DNA of 28,755 bases from a virus. Positions 16,124 to 25,868 of this stretch are shown one piece after another (the stretch's first letter is position 1; each line of letters opens with the position of its first letter). Made by a program: the position numbers and the translations under genes. The notes below the pieces were generated by a model. It worked only from the letters and a program-made list of their open reading frames with translations. It searched no databases and had not been told where the DNA came from. The stretch covers positions 1 to 28,755 of the IMG/VR virus record IMGVR_UViG_3300036719_001263, one strand, 5' to 3'.

Positions 16124-18079
16124 ATGTCTATTTTATGGGTTGACTTTGAGACGCGCAGCCGTTGCGACCTTCGCAGCCGCGGCGTCTACAACTACGCGCA
16201 GGACGCCAGCACCGACGTGTTGTGCATGTCCTACGCATTTGATGACGATGACGTGCGGACGTGGCTACCAAGTGAGCCTTTCCCGCAGGCCGTGCGTGAT
16301 CACAAGGGGCTGGTATACGCGCACAACGCAGCGTTCGAGCGCCTGATATTCTGGTATGTCCTTCAGGTCGAGTTCAAGCTGGAGCAGTTTTACTGCACCG
16401 CAGCGCAAGCCCGCGCCAACTGCGCGCCGGGTAGCCTTGAGGATGTGGGCCGCTTCGCTGGCGCGACCATGAAGAAAGACCATCGCGGCGGTCAACTGAT
16501 CCGCTTGCTGTCCATCCCGCAATCAGACGGCACGTTCCGCGAGGACGCAGGCTTGATGCAGGAAATGGTTGACTATTGCGAACAGGACGTGCGGGCCATG
16601 CGGGCCATCGCGCAGGCACAGCGTCCGCTGTCGGCTGAAGAGTTGGCCGATTATCACACCAACGAGCGCATCAACGACCGCGGCGTCCTGCTTGACAGGC
16701 CGCTGGCGCTGGCCGCTGTGCGCTACGCCCAAGAAGAGTTGGTCGAGATACAAGACATCGTCGCAGAGGTGACGAAGGGCGAGATTAAGTCCGTCCGCAG
16801 CCCCAAGATGAAGGTGTGGGTGCTGGACAGGGTAGGGCCGCAGGCGCTTGAACTGGCGACTATTTACAAAGACGGTGAAGCCAAGCTATCTATTGACAAG
16901 AACGTGCGCGCTAACTTGCTCACGCTGGCAGAGGAAAATCCAGATGAAGTTCCATCAGAAGTTGCAGAAGTCATCCAGTGCGCGGACGATCTGTGGGCAT
17001 CGTCCGTTGCAAAGTTCGAGCGGGCCGCGGCGCTTGCTGATGAGGAAGATTTTCGAGTTAGAGGAGCATTTGTTTTTGCAGGAGGCAGTGCTACTGGCCG
17101 CGCTTCATCATTTGGGCTTCAGGTCCACAACTTCCCAAGAAAGTGCGCCGCCGACCCGGCATTAGTGCGGCAGGCTATGGTGCGCGGTCACCAGATTGTC
17201 CCCGCGCATGGCCGCCGCGTAACTGACGTGCTGAAGGGTATGCTACGCCCTGCGCTGATGGCTGACAAAGGCAAGCGGCTGGTCGTTGCCGATTGGGCAG
17301 CCATCGAAGCGCGGGTGACGCCGTGGGCGTCCAACAGCACCTTCGGTGCTAACAAGCTAGACATCTTTGCCAAGGGTGAAGACGTTTACAAGCACAACGC
17401 TATGGCGACCTTCCATGTCGGTTACGGCGATGTCAACACAGACCAGCGCCAGATCGGCAAGGTTCAAGAGTTGGCGTGCGGCTTCGCCGGCGGCGTCGGT
17501 GCGTTTGCCAGCATGGGCCGCATCTACGGCTTGCTGATGTCGGAGAGCGACGCAAAGCGCATGGTGGACGCATGGCGCCGCGCTAACAAGTGGGCCGTGC
17601 CTTACTGGTCTGGCCTTGAGGACACCTATATGCGCGCCATGCGAAACAAGGGCCGTGAGTTCAAGATTGGCCGCGTTACATATTTATTTGACGGATTGCA
17701 TCTTTGGTATGCGCTTCCGTCTGGACGTGTGTTATGCTATCCTTTCGCCCGCTTCGACGAGGAAGGCAATCTGACCTATGCCAAGGCTTCATGGAAGCCA
17801 GCCGCAGACGCTAAAGAGTGGCCTAGGGCGCGGCTATGGCGCGGTCTGGCGTGTGAGAACATCACGCAGGCTGTCGCCAACGACTTGCTGCGCCATGCCT
17901 TGCGTCGATTGGATAACGTAGTGCTGCACATCCACGATGAAATCGTCTTGGAAGTGCCAGAGGATGAAGCCGAAGCCGCCGCAGCGCGGCTGGTGCAGAT
18001 TATGTGTGAGCCGCCACCTTGGGCGTCGGGGCTACCCCTGAACGCAGAAGTGGCGATTATGGAACGATATGGCAAATAA
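16124..18079 (+). CDS. Family A DNA polymerase with 3'-5' exonuclease
   Basis: A 651-residue replicative polymerase. The N-terminal DEDDy exonuclease has motif I WVDFETR (Asp7, Glu9), motif II YAHNAAFE (Asn68) and motif III DYCEQD (Tyr151, Asp155), so proofreading should work. The polymerase domain has motif A VVADWAAIEARV (Asp390), motif B around GKVQELACGFAGGVGAF (Lys446) and motif C HIHDEIVLEVP (Asp605, Glu606). In motif B the usual YG is replaced by FAGG, as in a group of phage Pol I-like enzymes. The start at ATG 16124 is favoured over GTG 16112, which lies too close to GGAAG. Translation probably uses the GAGTGAG stretch. The last 11 bases precede the strong AAGGAG for the primase gene. 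Confidence 0.93.
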   Translation: MSILWVDFETRSRCDLRSRGVYNYAQDASTDVLCMSYAFDDDDVRTWLPSEPFPQAVRDHKGLVYAHNAAFERLIFWYVLQVEFKLEQFYCTAAQARANCAPGSLEDVGRFAGATMKKDHRGGQLIRLLSIPQSDGTFREDAGLMQEMVDYCEQDVRAMRAIAQAQRPLSAEELADYHTNERINDRGVLLDRPLALAAVRYAQEELVEIQDIVAEVTKGEIKSVRSPKMKVWVLDRVGPQALELATIYKDGEAKLSIDKNVRANLLTLAEENPDEVPSEVAEVIQCADDLWASSVAKFERAAALADEEDFRVRGAFVFAGGSATGRASSFGLQVHNFPRKCAADPALVRQAMVRGHQIVPAHGRRVTDVLKGMLRPALMADKGKRLVVADWAAIEARVTPWASNSTFGANKLDIFAKGEDVYKHNAMATFHVGYGDVNTDQRQIGKVQELACGFAGGVGAFASMGRIYGLLMSESDAKRMVDAWRRANKWAVPYWSGLEDTYMRAMRNKGREFKIGRVTYLFDGLHLWYALPSGRVLCYPFARFDEEGNLTYAKASWKPAADAKEWPRARLWRGLACENITQAVANDLLRHALRRLDNVVLHIHDEIVLEVPEDEAEAAAARLVQIMCEPPPWASGLPLNAEVAIMERYGK

Positions 18080-18089
18080 GGAGCAAGCG

Positions 18090-20438
18090 ATGAGTGAGGA
18101 TCGCATCAAGTTTATCGAATATATAACCGGATTGGCGACAGACAATGTCGGCGAGACGGCTTTGGTCGTGCGTCAGAAGCCGCAGCACGACAGCGACGGC
18201 AACCTGATATTCCATGCAGACGGTGCACCGAAGGCCACCTTTCCTGCGTTCCTACCAGAAAAGACCCGCATGAAAGAAGGCGAGGCATGGTATGTCAACA
18301 CAGGTTCGTTCATCGTTGACCGCTTTGTAGACGGCAAGCCGTCCGCCAAGTCGAGCAACGTTGAGTATGTGTTGTTTATGATGCTGGACGATGTCGGCAC
18401 TAAGTCGAAAGAGCCACCGCTTGACCCGACATGGATATTGGAAACCAGCGAAGGTTCGTTTCAGTGGGGCTATGCGTTCAGCGAACAGCCAAAGAAGGGC
18501 GACTTCTGCGCTGCCATCAAGGCGATTGCCGATGCAGGCTACACCGATCCCGGCGCGACTAACGCTGTCCGCAACTGCCGCATCCCCGGCAGCGTCAACC
18601 TGAAGCGCGGACGCAATAACTTTCCTGCGCGGCTGGTCGAGTTCCACCCAGACCGTGAATACACGCTGGAGCAAATCTGCGAGGCGCTAGACGTTACGCC
18701 AGCCGAAGGCGACACAGCCGAATATAAAGCGGTGCAGTTGCGCGACAATGGGCTTGACAACGTCCTGACATGGCTTGCGGACAACAACCTAGTCCTTAGC
18801 CATCCTAACGCCGACGGCTGGTGCGGCATCGTCTGCCCTAACCATGAGCAACACAGCGACGGCATGATCGAGGCGCGCTACAAGCCGCTCGACCGTTCGT
18901 TCTGCTGCTATCATGGGCATTGTCAAGACCTTGACAGCCGGACATTCCTTGATTGGGTAGCCAACAACAACGGCCCCAAGGTAACGCCGGGCTTGCGTGA
19001 CGAGTTAATCGCAGAGCGTCTGGCGTCGATGTATGACAAGATTGCGCCGACCGAAGCCTTCCCAGATGAGGCCGCAGCGCGTGTGCGTGAGGTCGAAAAG
19101 AAAGAGGCAGGACGGCTGGAACAAAGCGAGTGGTTCGAGCGTTTCGCCTACATACAGTCCGATGACTGCTATTTCGACATGGTGACGCGTCAGGAGATAG
19201 CCCGCAACGTTTTTAACGCCCTGTTTCGTCACATTGACTGCCGCTCCGTCCACAAGAAGACGCAGCGCGTGCAGGCGTCCGTTTATTTTGACGAGCGCCG
19301 TCAGGATCGCGGCGCCCCTGCACTGGCAGCGGTGACGTTCGCCGCTGGCGATGACGTTCTGGTGACGCGTGACGGGTTGGTCTACGGCAACCGCTGGACA
19401 AACGCCCGTCCTGATGTAGCCCTTAGCGACACAATCGCGGATCACGATGTCGAGCCTTGGCTAGAGCATTGCCGCAGTCTGGTGTCAGATGATGTCGAGT
19501 TAGACCACATCCTTGATGCTATGGCGTTCAAGATACAGCACCCTAACGTCAAGATTAACCATGCCATCCTGATCGGCGGTGATGAAGGCGCTGGTAAGGA
19601 CAGTATGTTCCAGCCGTTCTTGTGGGCGCTTGGTGGCAAGCATTGGCGCAACCGGTCAGTCATTGAGGCTGGCGGGTTGGATAGCCAGTGGGGTTATTCG
19701 CTTGAGGCTGAAGTTGTCATCCTGAACGAGTTGAAGGAGCCAGAGGCACGCGAACGTCGCGCTATGGCTAACAAACTAAAGCCGCTCATCGCCGCACCGC
19801 CTGAAACGCTGTCGGTCAACCGTAAGGGGATGCATCCTTACGAGTTGGTCAACCGTTTGATGGTGGTTGCCTACACGAACGATCCGCTACCTATCACGCT
19901 GCCGACACAGGATCGTCGCTGGTTCTGCGTGTGGACACGCGCACCGCGTATGACGCCAGCCGCAGCCAATGCGCTGTGGGGCTGGTATCAGAATGGCGGC
20001 TATGAGAAGTGCGCCGCTTGGCTGCATCAGCGCGACGTGTCGGCGTTCAACCCTGCTGCTGCGCCGCCAGTGACCGAATGGAAGCTGAACATGGTCGAGC
20101 ATGGCATGAGCGTTGCGGAAAGCTACCTTGTGGACATGATGCGGACGCGGTCGGGCGTGTTCTCCGATGGCGTCATTGGTGGGCCTTTCCATCGCATCTG
20201 CGATGCACTGGCGGTCAACGTGCCGGCTGGTGTGAAGGTTCCGCAAGCTGCGCTGCTTCATGCGCTAAAGGAAGCCGGCTGGGTTGACATGGGGCGGGTT
20301 GGTTCGACCGAATTGCCTACCAAAAAGCACATCTTTGTCGCGCCTGATCTCGTTAAGAAGCACACCAAATCAGAGTTGCGCCGCATGGCGGAAGACTTGC
20401 CTAAGTCGGGCACACTGACAAACTTAGGCAGGAATTGA
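18090..20438 (+). CDS. Primase-helicase (AEP-like primase, zinc region, SF3/D5-like helicase)
   Basis: A 782-residue fusion. The N-terminal part resembles RepB/PrimPol-type archaeo-eukaryotic primases: LFMMLDDVGTKS (Asp100, Asp101), TSEGSFQWGY and CRIPGSVNLK. Residues 245-280 hold a Cys/His cluster (WCGIVCPNHEQHSDG and CCYHGHC) likely to bind zinc. The C-terminal part has Walker A GGDEGAGKDS (residues 496-505, Lys503) and Walker B VVILNELKE (Glu547), as in DUF5906/SF3 helicases, and an arginine-rich motif QDRRWFCVW. The start at ATG 18090 is set by AAGGAG at 18078-18083, which overlaps the polymerase stop; the earlier ATG at 18069 lacks a ribosome-binding site. It would unwind the origin and make primers, and is followed by a terminator. 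Confidence 0.88.
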   Translation: MSEDRIKFIEYITGLATDNVGETALVVRQKPQHDSDGNLIFHADGAPKATFPAFLPEKTRMKEGEAWYVNTGSFIVDRFVDGKPSAKSSNVEYVLFMMLDDVGTKSKEPPLDPTWILETSEGSFQWGYAFSEQPKKGDFCAAIKAIADAGYTDPGATNAVRNCRIPGSVNLKRGRNNFPARLVEFHPDREYTLEQICEALDVTPAEGDTAEYKAVQLRDNGLDNVLTWLADNNLVLSHPNADGWCGIVCPNHEQHSDGMIEARYKPLDRSFCCYHGHCQDLDSRTFLDWVANNNGPKVTPGLRDELIAERLASMYDKIAPTEAFPDEAAARVREVEKKEAGRLEQSEWFERFAYIQSDDCYFDMVTRQEIARNVFNALFRHIDCRSVHKKTQRVQASVYFDERRQDRGAPALAAVTFAAGDDVLVTRDGLVYGNRWTNARPDVALSDTIADHDVEPWLEHCRSLVSDDVELDHILDAMAFKIQHPNVKINHAILIGGDEGAGKDSMFQPFLWALGGKHWRNRSVIEAGGLDSQWGYSLEAEVVILNELKEPEARERRAMANKLKPLIAAPPETLSVNRKGMHPYELVNRLMVVAYTNDPLPITLPTQDRRWFCVWTRAPRMTPAAANALWGWYQNGGYEKCAAWLHQRDVSAFNPAAAPPVTEWKLNMVEHGMSVAESYLVDMMRTRSGVFSDGVIGGPFHRICDALAVNVPAGVKVPQAALLHALKEAGWVDMGRVGSTELPTKKHIFVAPDLVKKHTKSELRRMAEDLPKSGTLTNLGRN

Positions 20439-20540: not shown

Positions 20541-20708
20541 TTAGCGCAGCCCTTTTTTCAGTTTCCTATAGCGGCCTTCAACAGAAGCAATGGTCAGCCC
20601 CATTTGCTCCGCCATGTAGGATGGTCTTAGGCCGTGTTCATAATAGCTTATCAATTCTGCATCCATTTCAGGTGTCCACATACGCCTAGTCCGTTTTACT
20701 ATTGGCAT
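20541..20708 (-). CDS. Small HTH protein (GcrA/Myb-like)
   Basis: A 55-residue protein read as a basic start (MPIVKRTRR), then MWTPEMDAELISYYEHGLRP and SYMAEQMGLTIASVEGRYRKL. The pattern of a Trp at the start of helix 1, an acidic helix, then a turn (GLRPSYMAEQMG) and a recognition helix (IASVEGRYRKL) is like GcrA-type or Myb/SANT DNA-binding heads. It is likely a small regulator or DNA-binding protein. It ends the leftward early-type block and stops six bases from the terminator. Its ribosome-binding site is weak. Confidence 0.7.
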   Translation of the reverse strand: MPIVKRTRRMWTPEMDAELISYYEHGLRPSYMAEQMGLTIASVEGRYRKLKKGLR

Positions 20709-21563: not shown

Positions 21564-21749
21564 TTACATCCATCTAGTAATGAAGGTTACGCCGCCCACA
21601 GTGCGGCACTTGAACGCTTTGCCGTTACGGATGCCGTATTGGCTTACGTTGCGGCTAATGCGCTTGGCATCGCCCTTCTTGGTGGCTGGCATGGTGGCGA
21701 TCTCGCCAACCTCTAGCGTTCCCATTGGGTATACCATCGGGCGGCTCAT
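21564..21749 (-). CDS. Small basic protein, possibly nucleic-acid binding
   Basis: A 61-residue protein starting MSRPMVYPMGTLEVGEIATM and ending AFKCRTVGGVTFITRWM. The middle, with ATKKGDAKRISRNVSQYGI, has the turn and helix spacing of a possible recognition helix, and the protein is basic. The start is set by AAAAGGAG nine bases upstream; the frame extends to 21821 but overlaps the preceding gene. The ATG overlaps that gene's stop (ATGA). Function is unknown. Confidence 0.68.
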   Translation of the reverse strand: MSRPMVYPMGTLEVGEIATMPATKKGDAKRISRNVSQYGIRNGKAFKCRTVGGVTFITRWM

Positions 21750-21883
21750 TTGCTTTGCTCCTTTTCGCGCTCTGCGCGGCGTTCCGCGAAGGTCTTGCCG
21801 TCCAGCCCGCGCAGCGGCCATGCGCTGTCGGATGATATGCGATGCTTGCGCCCCATAGGCGCGGCTTGTTGTGTTTTGATCAT
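21746..21883 (-). CDS. 45-residue basic protein
   Basis: Starts MIKTQQAAPMGRKHRIS and ends FAERRAERE followed by KEQSK, with SSDSAWPLRGLDGKT in the middle. It is Arg/Lys-rich and probably mostly helical at the C-terminus. GGAG lies eight bases before the ATG, and the stop overlaps the next start (ATGA). It is too short for routine gene calling, but fits exactly between two genes in a coupled series. Confidence 0.6.
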   Translation of the reverse strand: MIKTQQAAPMGRKHRISSDSAWPLRGLDGKTFAERRAEREKEQSK

Positions 21884-21884
21884 G

Positions 21885-22223
21885 TTATAACTCCACTGTT
21901 GTCTTAGGTTTGGCGCGCTTGTCGTTTAGCCGTTCAAGCCAATATTTTTGTTCCGGCCCGAATGACCGTGCTGCATGGTATTTGAACAGCGCCAAGGCTA
22001 GCGGGTCGTATCCCTTATGCTTGTGCGTCACAATCAGCGGCGAGGGCGTCATGGGCCTATGGTCAGGGCAATAGAATTGCCGTTTGTTTTCGGCTGTCAC
22101 TTCCAGAATATCGCGCAGCGTCAGGTTCAGGCCGTGTTCGTTGTTGATATAGGCCGCAATGACGCTGCGGTCACTGATATATCCGGCAAGGTGCAGGATT
22201 TGCTTGCGTAGTGCGTAATCCAT
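21885..22223 (-). CDS. Hypothetical early-type protein, HTH-like start
   Basis: A 112-residue protein. Residues 5-50 (RKQILHLAGYISDRSVIAAY, then LTLRDILEVTAE) have the spacing of a helix-turn-helix fold. A central stretch FYCPDHRPMTPSPLIVTHKH contains one Cys and several His, perhaps a metal site. The C-terminus is helical. The start overlaps the previous stop as TGATG. A DNA-binding role is possible but not established. Confidence 0.68.
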   Translation of the reverse strand: MDYALRKQILHLAGYISDRSVIAAYINNEHGLNLTLRDILEVTAENKRQFYCPDHRPMTPSPLIVTHKHKGYDPLALALFKYHAARSFGPEQKYWLERLNDKRAKPKTTVEL

Positions 22224-22380: not shown

Positions 22381-22440
22381 TTAATCATCCAGTAATAAAG
22401 TTAATAGGAAAAGAGCGGCTCCAGCGATTACCGCGATCAT
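22381..22440 (-). CDS. 19-residue membrane micro-protein
   Basis: The frame reads MIAVIAGAALFLLTLLLDD, almost entirely hydrophobic with two acidic residues at the end, so it is long enough for one membrane span. The ATG overlaps the upstream stop (ATGA), and its stop lies three bases from the next ATG. Such a length is at the limit of what can be called; the coupling on both sides is the main support. Confidence 0.45.
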   Translation of the reverse strand: MIAVIAGAALFLLTLLLDD

Positions 22441-22670
22441 TTGGCCTCTAGTTGCGCTTGCAGGGTGTTGGCTTGTTCCATCCAACTGTCGAGCCGTGCG
22501 TTTAGTTCGTCAATCTCGCGCTTTGCATCCTCTAGTTGGTCGTCAACGCCTATCAGATGCTCCAGACGCTCCAACAGGATAAATTCTAATTCGGTGCGGA
22601 CGTTGTCTTGTGCGTAGCGCGTCAGTTCGCAGTCGTGCATCATGCGGAGATAATTGCGGTCGTTTGTCAT
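22437..22670 (-). CDS. Coiled-coil small protein
   Basis: A 77-residue protein, almost wholly helical. The C-terminal 40 residues (DDQLEDAKREIDELNARLDS, then EQANTLQAQLEAK) show a clear heptad pattern of Leu/Ile and would form a coiled coil. The stop overlaps the start of the 19-residue membrane protein (ATGA). Function unknown; oligomerisation is likely. Confidence 0.68.
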   Translation of the reverse strand: MTNDRNYLRMMHDCELTRYAQDNVRTELEFILLERLEHLIGVDDQLEDAKREIDELNARLDSWMEQANTLQAQLEAK

Positions 22671-23264: not shown

Positions 23265-23834
23265 TTAGGCGGCGATCGCGTCCTGCCATGCTGTATCAGG
23301 CGCTGTATGGCTCGACCGTATAGGCATCAGCACAGCAAATGCGCTTGGATAGAGCGGGAAGGTAACACCAGCCGGTGACTGTCCGTTATGGTGCAAATGC
23401 GCTTCTAACGAGCTTTTACCGCCTAACAGCTTGCCGATCTTACCCATGTCCGCAACATAAGCAGGATTGAATTGTGCAACTTCACCGGACAGATCGCCGG
23501 TTGGAATAGCGCGACGCCAATCAGGAAACGATCCGTCGATCGACTGGCAGGACATGTCGCCGCAACGATTAGGGCTTATGTCGATCGTTTTGTTTTTATA
23601 ACCTGTCAGCGCGCGCTTGATAACGTCGCTAGGGATAATCCAACCTTTAAATTCGGGCATATCACTAACGTCGATCTTGCCACAGAATAGTCGGTGACCG
23701 TCGGTCGATACGACATAGCCTGTAGGATCCACATAAACGCCATTGAGATAATAGCGCGCTTGTTCTGTTGAAGCGCAGATCAGCGCAGCGCGCAATAGAT
23801 CGGCAGATATGGTGATTGTTGTTTCGTTAGTCAT
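23265..23834 (-). CDS. Beta sliding-clamp-like protein (DnaN type, shortened)
   Basis: A 189-residue protein. TEQARYYLNGVYVD (24-36), VVSTDGHRLF (41-50), the strand-helix GWIIPSDVIKRAL, DGSFPDWRR (100-108) and the closing VLMPIR (168-173) match signature sequences of bacterial DnaN domains II and III, where RYYLNG, TDGHRL, DGRFPDYRR and VMPMR occur. Domain I appears to be missing; bacterial clamps have about 366 residues. It may form a ring for the phage polymerase or interfere with the host clamp. AAAGGA precedes the ATG. It is flanked by two hairpins in the leftward early block. Confidence 0.8.
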   Translation of the reverse strand: MTNETTITISADLLRAALICASTEQARYYLNGVYVDPTGYVVSTDGHRLFCGKIDVSDMPEFKGWIIPSDVIKRALTGYKNKTIDISPNRCGDMSCQSIDGSFPDWRRAIPTGDLSGEVAQFNPAYVADMGKIGKLLGGKSSLEAHLHHNGQSPAGVTFPLYPSAFAVLMPIRSSHTAPDTAWQDAIAA

Positions 23835-24281: not shown

Positions 24282-24503
24282 TTACCATTCGCCGCCAGCG
24301 GCGCGGACTTCGTCGCGGCGCTCTGCCAGCGGCGCAAGCGCAGCGCGGACATTGGCGATTGCTTGCGCGATCGTTTCTGCGCCGTCGAGACATTCGAGAA
24401 TGTCGCCGTCTGACCAGCATTCGACAACATAGTCCCAACCGTCAGATTCGTATGTCCGCAGCGCGTGATTGCGGACGGCGTTTATAAGGTCTTGTTCGTT
24501 CAT
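24282..24503 (-). CDS. First gene of leftward early block, unknown function
   Basis: A 73-residue acidic protein (starting MNEQDLINAVRNHALRTYES, then DYVVECWSDGDILECLDGAE) with two helices around a short strand. It is the first gene downstream of the 864-bp control region and so probably the most strongly expressed early product. TAGGAGTGAACGAC precedes the ATG at 24503; the longer frame to 24539 lacks a ribosome-binding site. First-expressed phage genes often act against the host, but nothing here shows that directly. Confidence 0.68.
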   Translation of the reverse strand: MNEQDLINAVRNHALRTYESDGWDYVVECWSDGDILECLDGAETIAQAIANVRAALAPLAERRDEVRAAGGEW

Positions 24504-24546
24504 GTCGTTCACTCCTACAGCGTCATGCTGTGCCCTCATTCTACAC

Positions 24547-24684
24547 AGTTTGAGGGTATATAAAAGACACTATTTTGCATCGCCATGTCGATTTTCCAGA
24601 TTTGCACTAAATTGTGTGGCATTTTAGCACTACCCTCTAAAACCGATTTTAAAGCCCATACAGCGCGATTTGAGTTTGAGGGTA
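24547..24684. repeat. AGTTTGAGGGTA repeats beside the early block
   Basis: The 12-mer AGTTTGAGGGTA occurs at 24547-24558 and 24673-24684, and a related inverted copy (CTACCCTCTAAA) at 24630-24641. The first copy overlaps an AT-rich stretch (TATATAA) suited to the leftward early promoter. They may be operators for a phage regulator. A GGCATTTTAG 10-mer also occurs twice (24618-24627 and 24773-24782). Confidence 0.6.
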
Positions 24685-24777
24685 GTCTAACACCTAAAGA
24701 GGGCAAGTCTCAAAAGGTTCTGGTTCTGTTCTATCTCTGTTCCAATAGCCTAGAATCGCCTAGAAAAGACCAGGCAT

Positions 24778-24861
24778 TTTAGGGTGAAAATAAATCTGTG
24801 GATAAGTTATGTGCTGAAATAGGCGGAATAGTCATGAGTTAGGCTATGTTTTCACCCTAAA
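24778..24861. repeat. 13-bp inverted repeat enclosing the DnaA box
   Basis: TTTAGGGTGAAAA (24778-24790) and TTTTCACCCTAAA (24849-24861) are perfect inverted copies separated by 58 bases. The spacer holds the DnaA box. They could bind a dimeric protein with DNA looping, or form a large stem when melted. Confidence 0.75.
24797..24805 (-). promoter_or_regulatory. Consensus DnaA box
   Basis: TGTGGATAA on the + strand is the exact complement of the bacterial DnaA box TTATCCACA. It lies in the AT-rich repeat region, next to iteron-like units and inside the 13-bp inverted repeat. One nine-base match can arise by chance, but this setting makes it meaningful. Confidence 0.65.
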
Positions 24862-24954
24862 TAGCCTAGGAAAAAGTAACGGATTACGGCGCGTCTTGGA
24901 GATAGTTAGGCGATCTAGGCTATTGGTTATGTAGTCACTATCAAAAATAAAAAT

Positions 24955-24971
24955 GTTATATAGAATATAAC
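24955..24971. repeat. Hairpin-forming inverted repeat GTTATAT-AGA-ATATAAC
   Basis: Seven-base perfect arms around a three-base centre in an AT-only region of the control stretch. It may mark an easily melted site. Confidence 0.6.
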
Positions 24972-25037
24972 CTATACGGTTAGCGTTGTATTCGTGGCGA
25001 TTGAAAACCGATAGCCTAGATCGCCTAGATCGCCTAG

Positions 25038-25057
25038 ACTTTACGTTAACGTAAAGT
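25038..25057. repeat. Perfect 20-bp palindrome
   Basis: ACTTTACGTTAACGTAAAGT is identical to its own reverse complement with no loop. It directly follows the three tandem GCCTAGA units. A gapless 20-bp palindrome is typical of a dimer-binding operator. Confidence 0.85.
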
Positions 25058-25103
25058 AGCAACTCAACTCATCGCCGACTTGCAAACGCATAGCCTAGAC
25101 CGC

Positions 25104-25121
25104 CAATTGTGTTAACAATTG
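25104..25121. repeat. Inverted repeat CAATTGT-gtta-ACAATTG
   Basis: Seven-base perfect arms with a four-base spacer, starting immediately after the last iteron-like unit. Its spacing from the 20-bp palindrome, centre to centre, is about 65 bases. Confidence 0.75.
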
Positions 25122-25155
25122 TAAACTCTAATCCAGCCAGCAAAATGTGTTTTTA

Positions 25156-25171
25156 CTAACATCGATGTTAG
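25156..25171. repeat. Perfect 16-bp palindrome
   Basis: CTAACATCGATGTTAG equals its own reverse complement. It lies about 50 bases to the right of the previous inverted repeat. A further smaller one, CGTGAC-t-GTCACG, follows at 25263-25275. Confidence 0.8.
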
Positions 25172-25232
25172 CAGGAAAGGAAAGGCCAACCCAGAATCTA
25201 GCAGCAAGAACAAATCCAGAACGCGTCGAGCA

Positions 25233-25252
25233 GGGGGGTGGGGGGCGTAGGG
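25233..25252 (+). other. G-run tract, possible G-quadruplex or packaging signal
   Basis: Six G, one T, six G, CGTA and three G in 20 bases, the only such tract in the window. It could fold into a G-quadruplex. Its place about 115 bases upstream of the small terminase gene fits where cos or pac recognition DNA often lies, but there is no direct evidence of cleavage here. Confidence 0.4.
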
Positions 25253-25330
25253 CCGAGCGCCGCGTGACTGTCACGGGCACGGTACGCAAACAATTTTTAT
25301 TTTTTTAAAATGTCACTGCATCAAAGCCTG

Positions 25331-25359
25331 TTGCGTATCTGCGCCCAGTAGATTAGTAT
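25331..25359 (+). promoter_or_regulatory. Promoter for the terminase/late genes
   Basis: TTGCGT (25331-25336) and TAGTAT (25354-25359) are separated by 17 bases, a fair sigma70-type pair. The -10 hexamer ends only eight bases before the ATG at 25368, so the RNA would start at or next to the start codon. Confidence 0.55.
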
Positions 25360-25367
25360 GCGGCCCA

Positions 25368-25868
25368 ATGACATTTTACTCACTGCCATTTACGCCAGAG
25401 CGGACGCAGGCCACCGAGTCGCGGCTAGAGGCGATATACACCGCTGCCCGCTACGGCCTGAAGGGTGACAGCCTCGCTATGGCGGCTGGCATGACCCCAC
25501 GGCAATTCCGCGTGCTGGCCGACGCTGACCCGCTGGTCGAGATGGCCGAGATCAAAGGTCGCAGCGACGGCGAGTACACAGCGGCTAAGACCATGTACGA
25601 AGCGGCGCGCGATGGCGACAGCAAGGCCGCGCTGGAGATACTAAAGCATCAGCACGGCTGGGTAGCCAAGCAGCAGATCGACGTAAACATCGACCAACAG
25701 ATAAGCATTACAGGCGCGCTGGAAAAAGCACAGACGCGCGTCATCGAGGGGCTGTACACTGACGTGACGCCCCGCCTAGAGGATAACACACATGCAGCAG
25801 CCGATATATTCAGCGCAAGACGAGATGGAGTTGATGGCGCGGCTGTGGTCGCCCACACTAAAGGATGA
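25368..25868 (+). CDS. Terminase small subunit
   Basis: A 166-residue protein immediately upstream of the large terminase. The N-terminal helical region (RLEAIYTAARYGLKGDSLAM then AAGMTPRQFRVLADADP) looks like the helix-turn-helix DNA-recognition head of TerS proteins. The middle (EYTAAKTMYEAARDGDSKAA, then LEILKHQHGW) is the expected oligomerisation helix pair, with a family-typical KHQHGW motif. It would form a ring that binds the packaging site and regulates the motor. No Shine-Dalgarno sequence precedes the ATG (GCGGCCCA). Its last 77 bases also code for the start of the large subunit. Confidence 0.87.
   Translation: MTFYSLPFTPERTQATESRLEAIYTAARYGLKGDSLAMAAGMTPRQFRVLADADPLVEMAEIKGRSDGEYTAAKTMYEAARDGDSKAALEILKHQHGWVAKQQIDVNIDQQISITGALEKAQTRVIEGLYTDVTPRLEDNTHAAADIFSARRDGVDGAAVVAHTKG

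Follow-up and report, generated by a model that had tools for sequence, protein, structure and literature searches.

A candidate iteron-type replication origin in a P22-like podovirus and its covariation with the predicted wing of a primase-helicase

Introduction

Origins of replication are almost never assigned in uncultured phages, and a repeat-rich stretch without a convincing gene in one such phage raises the question of whether it is an origin and, if so, which protein reads its repeats. The window, that is, the whole stretch of DNA analyzed (28,755 bases), is an IMG/VR record of an uncultured freshwater P22-like podovirus that was taken whole; the genome itself is incomplete, complete or near-complete relatives being ~37–39 kb, some with repeated ends. 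A sequence-only reading of the window had proposed positions 24504–25367 as a candidate origin whose iterons a phage protein would bind and had recommended comparing the region in related phages. That comparison was undertaken here; it decided the question and supports the proposal. In our assessment (probability roughly 0.84), the region is a replication origin and its ATAGCCTAGA-type repeats are iterons recognized by the predicted C-terminal winged helix of the phage’s own primase-helicase, an assignment of both an origin and its probable initiator from sequence alone.

Related Phages

Relatives were gathered by scanning with two queries, the large terminase and the primase-helicase; together with a pattern scan and the annotated record MW202483, this gave a comparison set of 107 distinct regions that precede the small terminase gene. 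Two further scans yielded 66 new, held-out regions, bringing the total compared to ~170 related phages. Annotated relatives are DSL-LC05 (OR003940) and the Manatee Spring podovirus (MW202483), and the family name “Luchaoviridae” was proposed in the DSL-LC05 paper (PMC10611076). The DNA of the origin region had no similarity match among annotated phages, an Rfam search returned nothing, and a search of a genome collection returned only MAG contigs and one remote Brevundimonas match (30% identity). Slight indications suggest freshwater betaproteobacteria as the hosts. One relative, L104, is represented by a contig of 58,385 bases, versus 37–39 kb in complete relatives, and could be a larger genome, a concatemer or a chimera.

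The Noncoding Region and Its Repeat Array

The gap, its borders and the elements within it are as follows.

24282–24503, minus strand: first leftward early gene, left border of the gap, no assigned function (ORF list)
24504–25367, unstranded: candidate noncoding origin/control region (ORF list; repeat array at the equivalent interval in nearly all of the 107 distinct relatives)
24745–24764, plus strand: two iterons with a 10-bp step, ATAGCCTAGA and ATCGCCTAGA (pattern scan)
24797–24805, minus strand: consensus DnaA box, TTATCCACA
24838–24847, minus strand: iteron with one mismatch, ATAGCCTAAC (pattern scan)
24861–24870, plus strand: iteron with one mismatch, ATAGCCTAGG (pattern scan)
24900–24999, unstranded: AT-rich stretch, 34% GC (flanking gene 52–71%), a candidate unwinding element
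24905–24923, minus strand: two iterons with a 9-bp step, ATCGCCTAAC and ATAGCCTAGA (pattern scan)
25011–25038, plus strand: three iterons with 9-bp steps (pattern scan)
25038–25057, unstranded: perfect 20-bp palindrome, ACTTTACGTTAACGTAAAGT
25090–25099, plus strand: iteron, ATAGCCTAGA (pattern scan)
25156–25171, unstranded: perfect 16-bp palindrome, CTAACATCGATGTTAG, as such not seen in relatives
25368–25868, plus strand: small terminase gene, right border of the gap

Most of what the sequence-only reading had described here was borne out. It had found no convincing gene, and the ORFs inside the gap have just 52–72 codons; one of them (24844–25062, minus strand) overlaps part of the array and recurs in genomes with the same repeat type (type A, below). 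Its count of about ten GCCTAGA-based copies, on both strands and in nine- and ten-base steps, agrees with the ten 10-mers of ATAGCCTAGA type that we located at 24745–25099 (pattern ATMGCCTARA, ≤1 mismatch). These begin at 24745, 24755, 24861, 25011, 25020, 25029 and 25090 on the plus strand and at 24838, 24905 and 24914 on the minus strand, with steps of 9 or 10 bp within clusters. Over the whole window there are 16 such sites versus 3.93 ± 1.87 expected, a number reached in none of 100 dinucleotide shuffles, while exact ATMGCCTAGA occurs seven times and the reversed control pattern not at all. The AT-rich stretches and palindromes that had been claimed are likewise present, and the core of the 20-bp palindrome, ACGTTAACGT, recurs 23 times as a palindrome across the 107 regions. 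The gap had also been placed between divergent early and late blocks. This holds for the units that flank it, the early genes pointing leftward and the terminase operon rightward, and requires one correction, as the early operon converges with the primase genes.

The consensus DnaA box is indeed there, but it is the single match in the window, where 1.9 would be expected by chance, and its enrichment is evident only in the relatives. Type A–E regions together contain 29 boxes versus 6.1 expected from base shuffles, irrespective of repeat type, a figure to be read with caution because these regions are not independent. Most of the relatives’ boxes are on the minus strand, ~570–790 bp before the terminase gene. 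With its one box, the window does not have the box cluster of a DnaA-dependent chromosomal-type origin, and no Rep_3-type initiator gene was found in a scan of window proteins that covered the replication genes and most early genes.

The sequence-only reading had held that a skew minimum elsewhere would speak against an origin at this site. In twelve near-complete or complete relatives, the minimum of the cumulative GC skew does nominally lie away from the array, usually ~10 kb upstream, and the array itself shows no skew switch. However, since the skew is shallow and its minimum roughly coincides with the switch in gene orientation, we consider it uninformative and have not counted it against the origin.

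A second short repeat, AGTTTGAGGGTA, is present in two exact copies (24547–24558 and 24673–24684) close to the leftward early genes; related CCCTC stretches lie in the vicinity, and the repeat is a possible early operator. Elsewhere in the window, the product of 23265–23834 (minus strand, 189 residues) resembles the beta clamp of DNA polymerase III in its central domain (PF02767, slightly under the cut-off) as well as the processivity factor PHROG 947, whereas PHROG 3007 labels it RusA-like; possibly, it is a small phage sliding clamp.

Repeat Types in Related Phages

Nearly all of the 107 relatives have a repeat array before the small terminase gene, the sequence of which varies even between close kin. 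About a third of the regions carry the GCCTA repeat in a similar layout, and most of the remainder have a different repeat at the same place, including phages that are 96% identical in the small terminase. In an unsupervised search, the commonest 9-mer had 3–16 copies per 900 bp, usually at least six, versus 3–5 in shuffles; over all such searches, most relatives had another 9–10-mer, as a rule in 6–18 copies. The repeats seen include ATAGCCTA(G/A), ATGACGTCC, ATGACCCAGA, ATGACCTACC, ATGACAAC, ATGACCCAAA, ATTGTCCACA and others, most types align in one common register, and 11 regions were untypable. The types are as follows.

Type A: ATAGCCTAgA
Type B: ATGACGTCC
Type C: ATGACCCAGA
Type D: ATGACCTACC
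Type E: ATGACAAC
Type F: ATGACCCAAA
Type G: ATGACCCACA
Type H: ATGACTCACA
Type I: ATTGTCCACA
Type K: ATGTAAACA

Apart from a stray site, the sites in complete type A relatives are confined to one stretch of ~0.5 kb. Of the 45 contigs carrying the paired motif, those with dense arrays (at least six copies) all belonged to this phage family and had the array next to the terminase; non-relatives had at most three copies, and none of the 45 was a satellite or unrelated element sharing the array. In the type D phages L142, L143 and L147, GCCTA repeats occur two or three times in addition to ATGACCTACC and are possibly left over from a previous origin type. The outlier L207 (MW202483), whose origin repeat is ATGTAAACA and whose wing (defined below) is CFAPELST, encodes at 31423–31719 (plus strand) a small protein with the C-terminal helix-turn-helix domain of DnaA (PF08299, E 1e-17).

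Domains of the Primase-Helicase

The protein that we propose as the initiator and the parts of it that matter here are listed below.

18069–20438, plus strand: primase-helicase, 789 residues, proposed initiator (Pfam, Foldseek, covariation with iteron type)
20106–20396, plus strand: predicted winged-helix domain, residues 680–776 (AlphaFold2)
20301–20324, plus strand: wing, residues 745–752 (GSTELPTK), of which 745, 747, 750 and 751 track iteron type

Its predicted layout is an AEP-type primase, a zinc-finger-like region, a D5/SF3-type helicase and a C-terminal winged helix. The helicase domain scored 37.4 bits against PF19263, above the cut-off of 27.6, and the primase domain, which is of AEP rather than TOPRIM type, scored 23.4 bits against PF16793, just below the cut-off of 24.3. 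In Foldseek searches with a full-length model, whose mean pLDDT was only 67, the helicase region matched the NrS-1 CTR, PriRep1 and D5, and the primase region matched the AEP domains of S-2L PrimPol and RepB’.

In the AlphaFold2 model, the C-terminal domain has helices at residues 682–692, 707–714 and 726–735 and strands at 702–704, 739–744 and 753–757, a helix-strand-helix-helix-strand-wing-strand topology, with a pLDDT of about 85 around the wing hairpin. Foldseek with the isolated C-terminal model matched no solved structure significantly (best E 0.3), which makes the winged helix a call from predicted topology, and a sequence profile of the domain had no plausible relative in the PDB. Helix 3 (726–735) is nearly invariant across the family, and the residues that covary with the repeats form the hairpin between strands 739–744 and 753–757.

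Covariation of Wing and Repeat Type

To identify the protein that changes with the repeats, we took relatives sharing ≥70% small-terminase identity with the window, clustered their ORFs of at least 50 codons and, for every family found in 25 or more of 66 genomes (types A–E), scored each alignment column for its prediction of repeat type. The primase-helicase ranked first by a wide margin (mean of its top four columns 0.48), followed by an ORF antisense to its 3′ end and by another frame over the same stretch, whereas the best family without overlap to that region reached 0.18. The excess normalized mutual information was 0.57 for residue 745, 0.51 for 747, 0.44 for 751 and 0.37 for 750, compared with 0.06 in the large terminase. 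It was at the level of residues that the signal was found; when whole-protein identity was compared with iteron type, no family stood out.

Three binders had been suggested by the sequence-only reading, and only the primase-helicase covaries with the repeats. The 112-residue protein (21885–22223) has subtypes that do not follow iteron type (0.18), and the same is true of the other conserved early proteins. The helix-turn-helix protein (20541–20708) does not track iteron type and was found in just 14 of the 66 genomes. As for the small terminase, its best value was 0.07, versus 0.57 for primase residue 745. The helix-turn-helix protein, encoded on the minus strand (55 residues) and present in only some relatives, is Myb/GcrA-like and related to a PHROG of D5-like regulators.

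The correspondence between wing and repeat is close. At residues 745–747, G-S-[TSV] is found in 21 of the 23 phages of type A, N-S-K in all 16 of types B and E, [AH]-S-[VI] in 6/6 of type C and G-S-K in 3/3 of type D. It is not one-to-one, as the NSK wing is common to types B and E and the two type A exceptions have A-C-V wings, with ATTGCC-like repeats.

Kinship alone does not account for these pairings. On a tree built from primase-helicase residues 1–690, with the C-terminal domain left out, the type A label shows almost no clustering and must have changed 13 times or more on supported branches. When phages of different type were compared as independent pairs, the wing was concordant in 11/11 for type A (p 0.001), 9/9 for types B/E (p 0.004) and 6/6 for type C (p 0.03). 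L102 and L118 differ at just 7 of the 690 core residues, yet their arrays are of type A versus type B and their wings are GSTELPT versus NSKDYMN. Conversely, the same pairings occur in divergent lineages with ~71–74% primase identity, L053 having a GSS wing with TAGCCTAAA and L154 an ASV wing with ATGACCCAGA.

Pairings for types F and I were initially read from a few genomes and then checked on the 66 held-out regions by an unsupervised repeat search. KSR wings accompanied ATTGTCCACA (the TTGTCCAC repeat) in 24/24 and ASG wings accompanied ATGACCCAA (GACCCAA) in 25/26. In the F/I clade, type changes only about five times, which gives four independent pairs, and an early protein of 66–71 residues also tracks type; it is therefore the A–E clade that assigns the covariation cleanly to the primase-helicase. 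The early protein, whose gene precedes that of the small terminase by ~2.9 kb (e.g., in L228–L305), has two allelic forms that co-segregate with origin type; it has no assigned function and no counterpart was identified in the window.

Alternative Explanations

Covariation of this kind could have other sources. It is unlikely that the repeats are operators through which the primase-helicase or another protein switches divergent early and late promoters while replication starts elsewhere. The array sits between divergent transcription units, there is a promoter-like site (24684–24713, minus strand), although at a frequency within chance, and operator-repressor pairs can covary too. However, the covarying protein is a replicative primase-helicase whose gene starts >6 kb away and is not flanked by the array, the small regulators in the window do not covary, and DnaA boxes are conserved in the region. 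Quite unlikely, too, is that the covariation reflects linkage, with the origin and the 3′ end of the primase gene inherited together as a single segment and the repeats read by a different protein, possibly one of the host. Against this, the intervening genes at 21564–21821, 21885–22223 and 22437–22670 do not track type in the A–E clade, and lineages as diverged as L053 and L154 reach the same pairings; in its favor are the location of wing and array on the same side of the genome, ~4.4 kb apart, and the small early protein of the F/I clade.

In P22-like phages, pac sites are near or in the small terminase gene, and the array is immediately 5′ of that gene. A role for the array in packaging (as a pac site) or in partition, with the small terminase or a centromere-binding protein as its reader, is nevertheless very improbable, as residues of the small terminase do not track iteron type, terminases up to 96–97% identical adjoin different arrays and no partition protein was recognized among the proteins scanned.

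Discussion

An origin read by the primase-helicase, with an unusually fast turnover of specificity, thus remains our preferred explanation; the tip of this protein is singled out as the probable reader by its repeated joint change with the repeats. Four things were computed directly: the array, its location in relatives, the replacement of its repeat between close relatives and the covariation of repeats with residues 745–751. Mechanistically, the initiator would bind the array through its predicted C-terminal winged helix, form a hexamer of D5/SF3 type, melt the neighboring AT-rich DNA and prime synthesis, with replication starting at this site. Host DnaA may perhaps help at the conserved DnaA box.

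Possibly, wing residues 745–751, and not the nearly invariant recognition helix, set origin specificity, in which case the many paired switches of wing and iteron would amount to a natural protein-DNA code, with switching potentially driven by competition between co-infecting phages or by an origin-directed antagonist. We hold this extension at even odds. The code suggested by the alignments would pair GS[TSV] with GCCTA, [AH]S[VI] with GACCCAG and NSK with GACGTC or GACAAC; for the F/I types, it would pair KSR with CCACA and ASG with GACCCAAA.

Within the open-access literature searched, the assignment of an origin in this phage family, the repeated turnover of its specificity and the location of that turnover in the wing appear to be new. 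The same logic yields many natural initiator-origin pairs, which would allow tests of how a winged helix changes its specificity and why phages change origin so often. Frequent change of origin has so far been argued mainly for satellites that are under attack at their origin (PMC8263062).

Comparison with Known Systems

The proposed arrangement has parallels in several systems. The alpha protein of P4 combines a primase, a helicase and a C-terminal winged helix that binds origin repeats in one protein (PMC4234260), as is predicted here. However, its primase is of TOPRIM type (PMC4234260) rather than AEP type, P4 is a satellite whereas the element studied here is a tailed phage, and searches with the C-terminal domain gave no sequence or fold match to the origin-binding domain of P4 alpha. 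SaPI Rep and SCCmec Cch2 have a D5-type helicase, as here, and a C-terminal domain that recognizes short origin iterons (PMC7581432), and our model matched PriRep1 (7pds) with an E of 6e-7. In those elements the helicase gene is followed immediately by the origin and does not encode the primase, which is a protein of its own, whereas in the window the array is ~4.3 kb away, across the early operon, and primase and helicase are fused.

The closest solved relative is the NrS-1 primase-polymerase (sequence E 1.7e-6; helicase-region fold E 7.7e-12). The work describing it reported a novel fold for the Tail domain and does not appear to mention a C-terminal winged helix that reads an iteron array (PMC7102993). 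For the AEP-helicase fusions PolpTN2 and PrimQH, a C-terminal winged helix was proposed from sequence to recognize the origin via helix 3 and the wing (PMC5862659). That proposal was speculation without origin data, whereas here covariation ties wing residues to the origin repeats. The closest precedent for joint exchange of iterons and an initiator domain is that of PLE, in which the origin iterons have been exchanged naturally together with the origin-binding domain of the initiator RepA, and which is attacked by the origin-directed nuclease Odn (PMC8263062). PLE differs in that RepA belongs to the RepA_N initiator family, that the exchange events are few and that a known antagonist is their likely driver.
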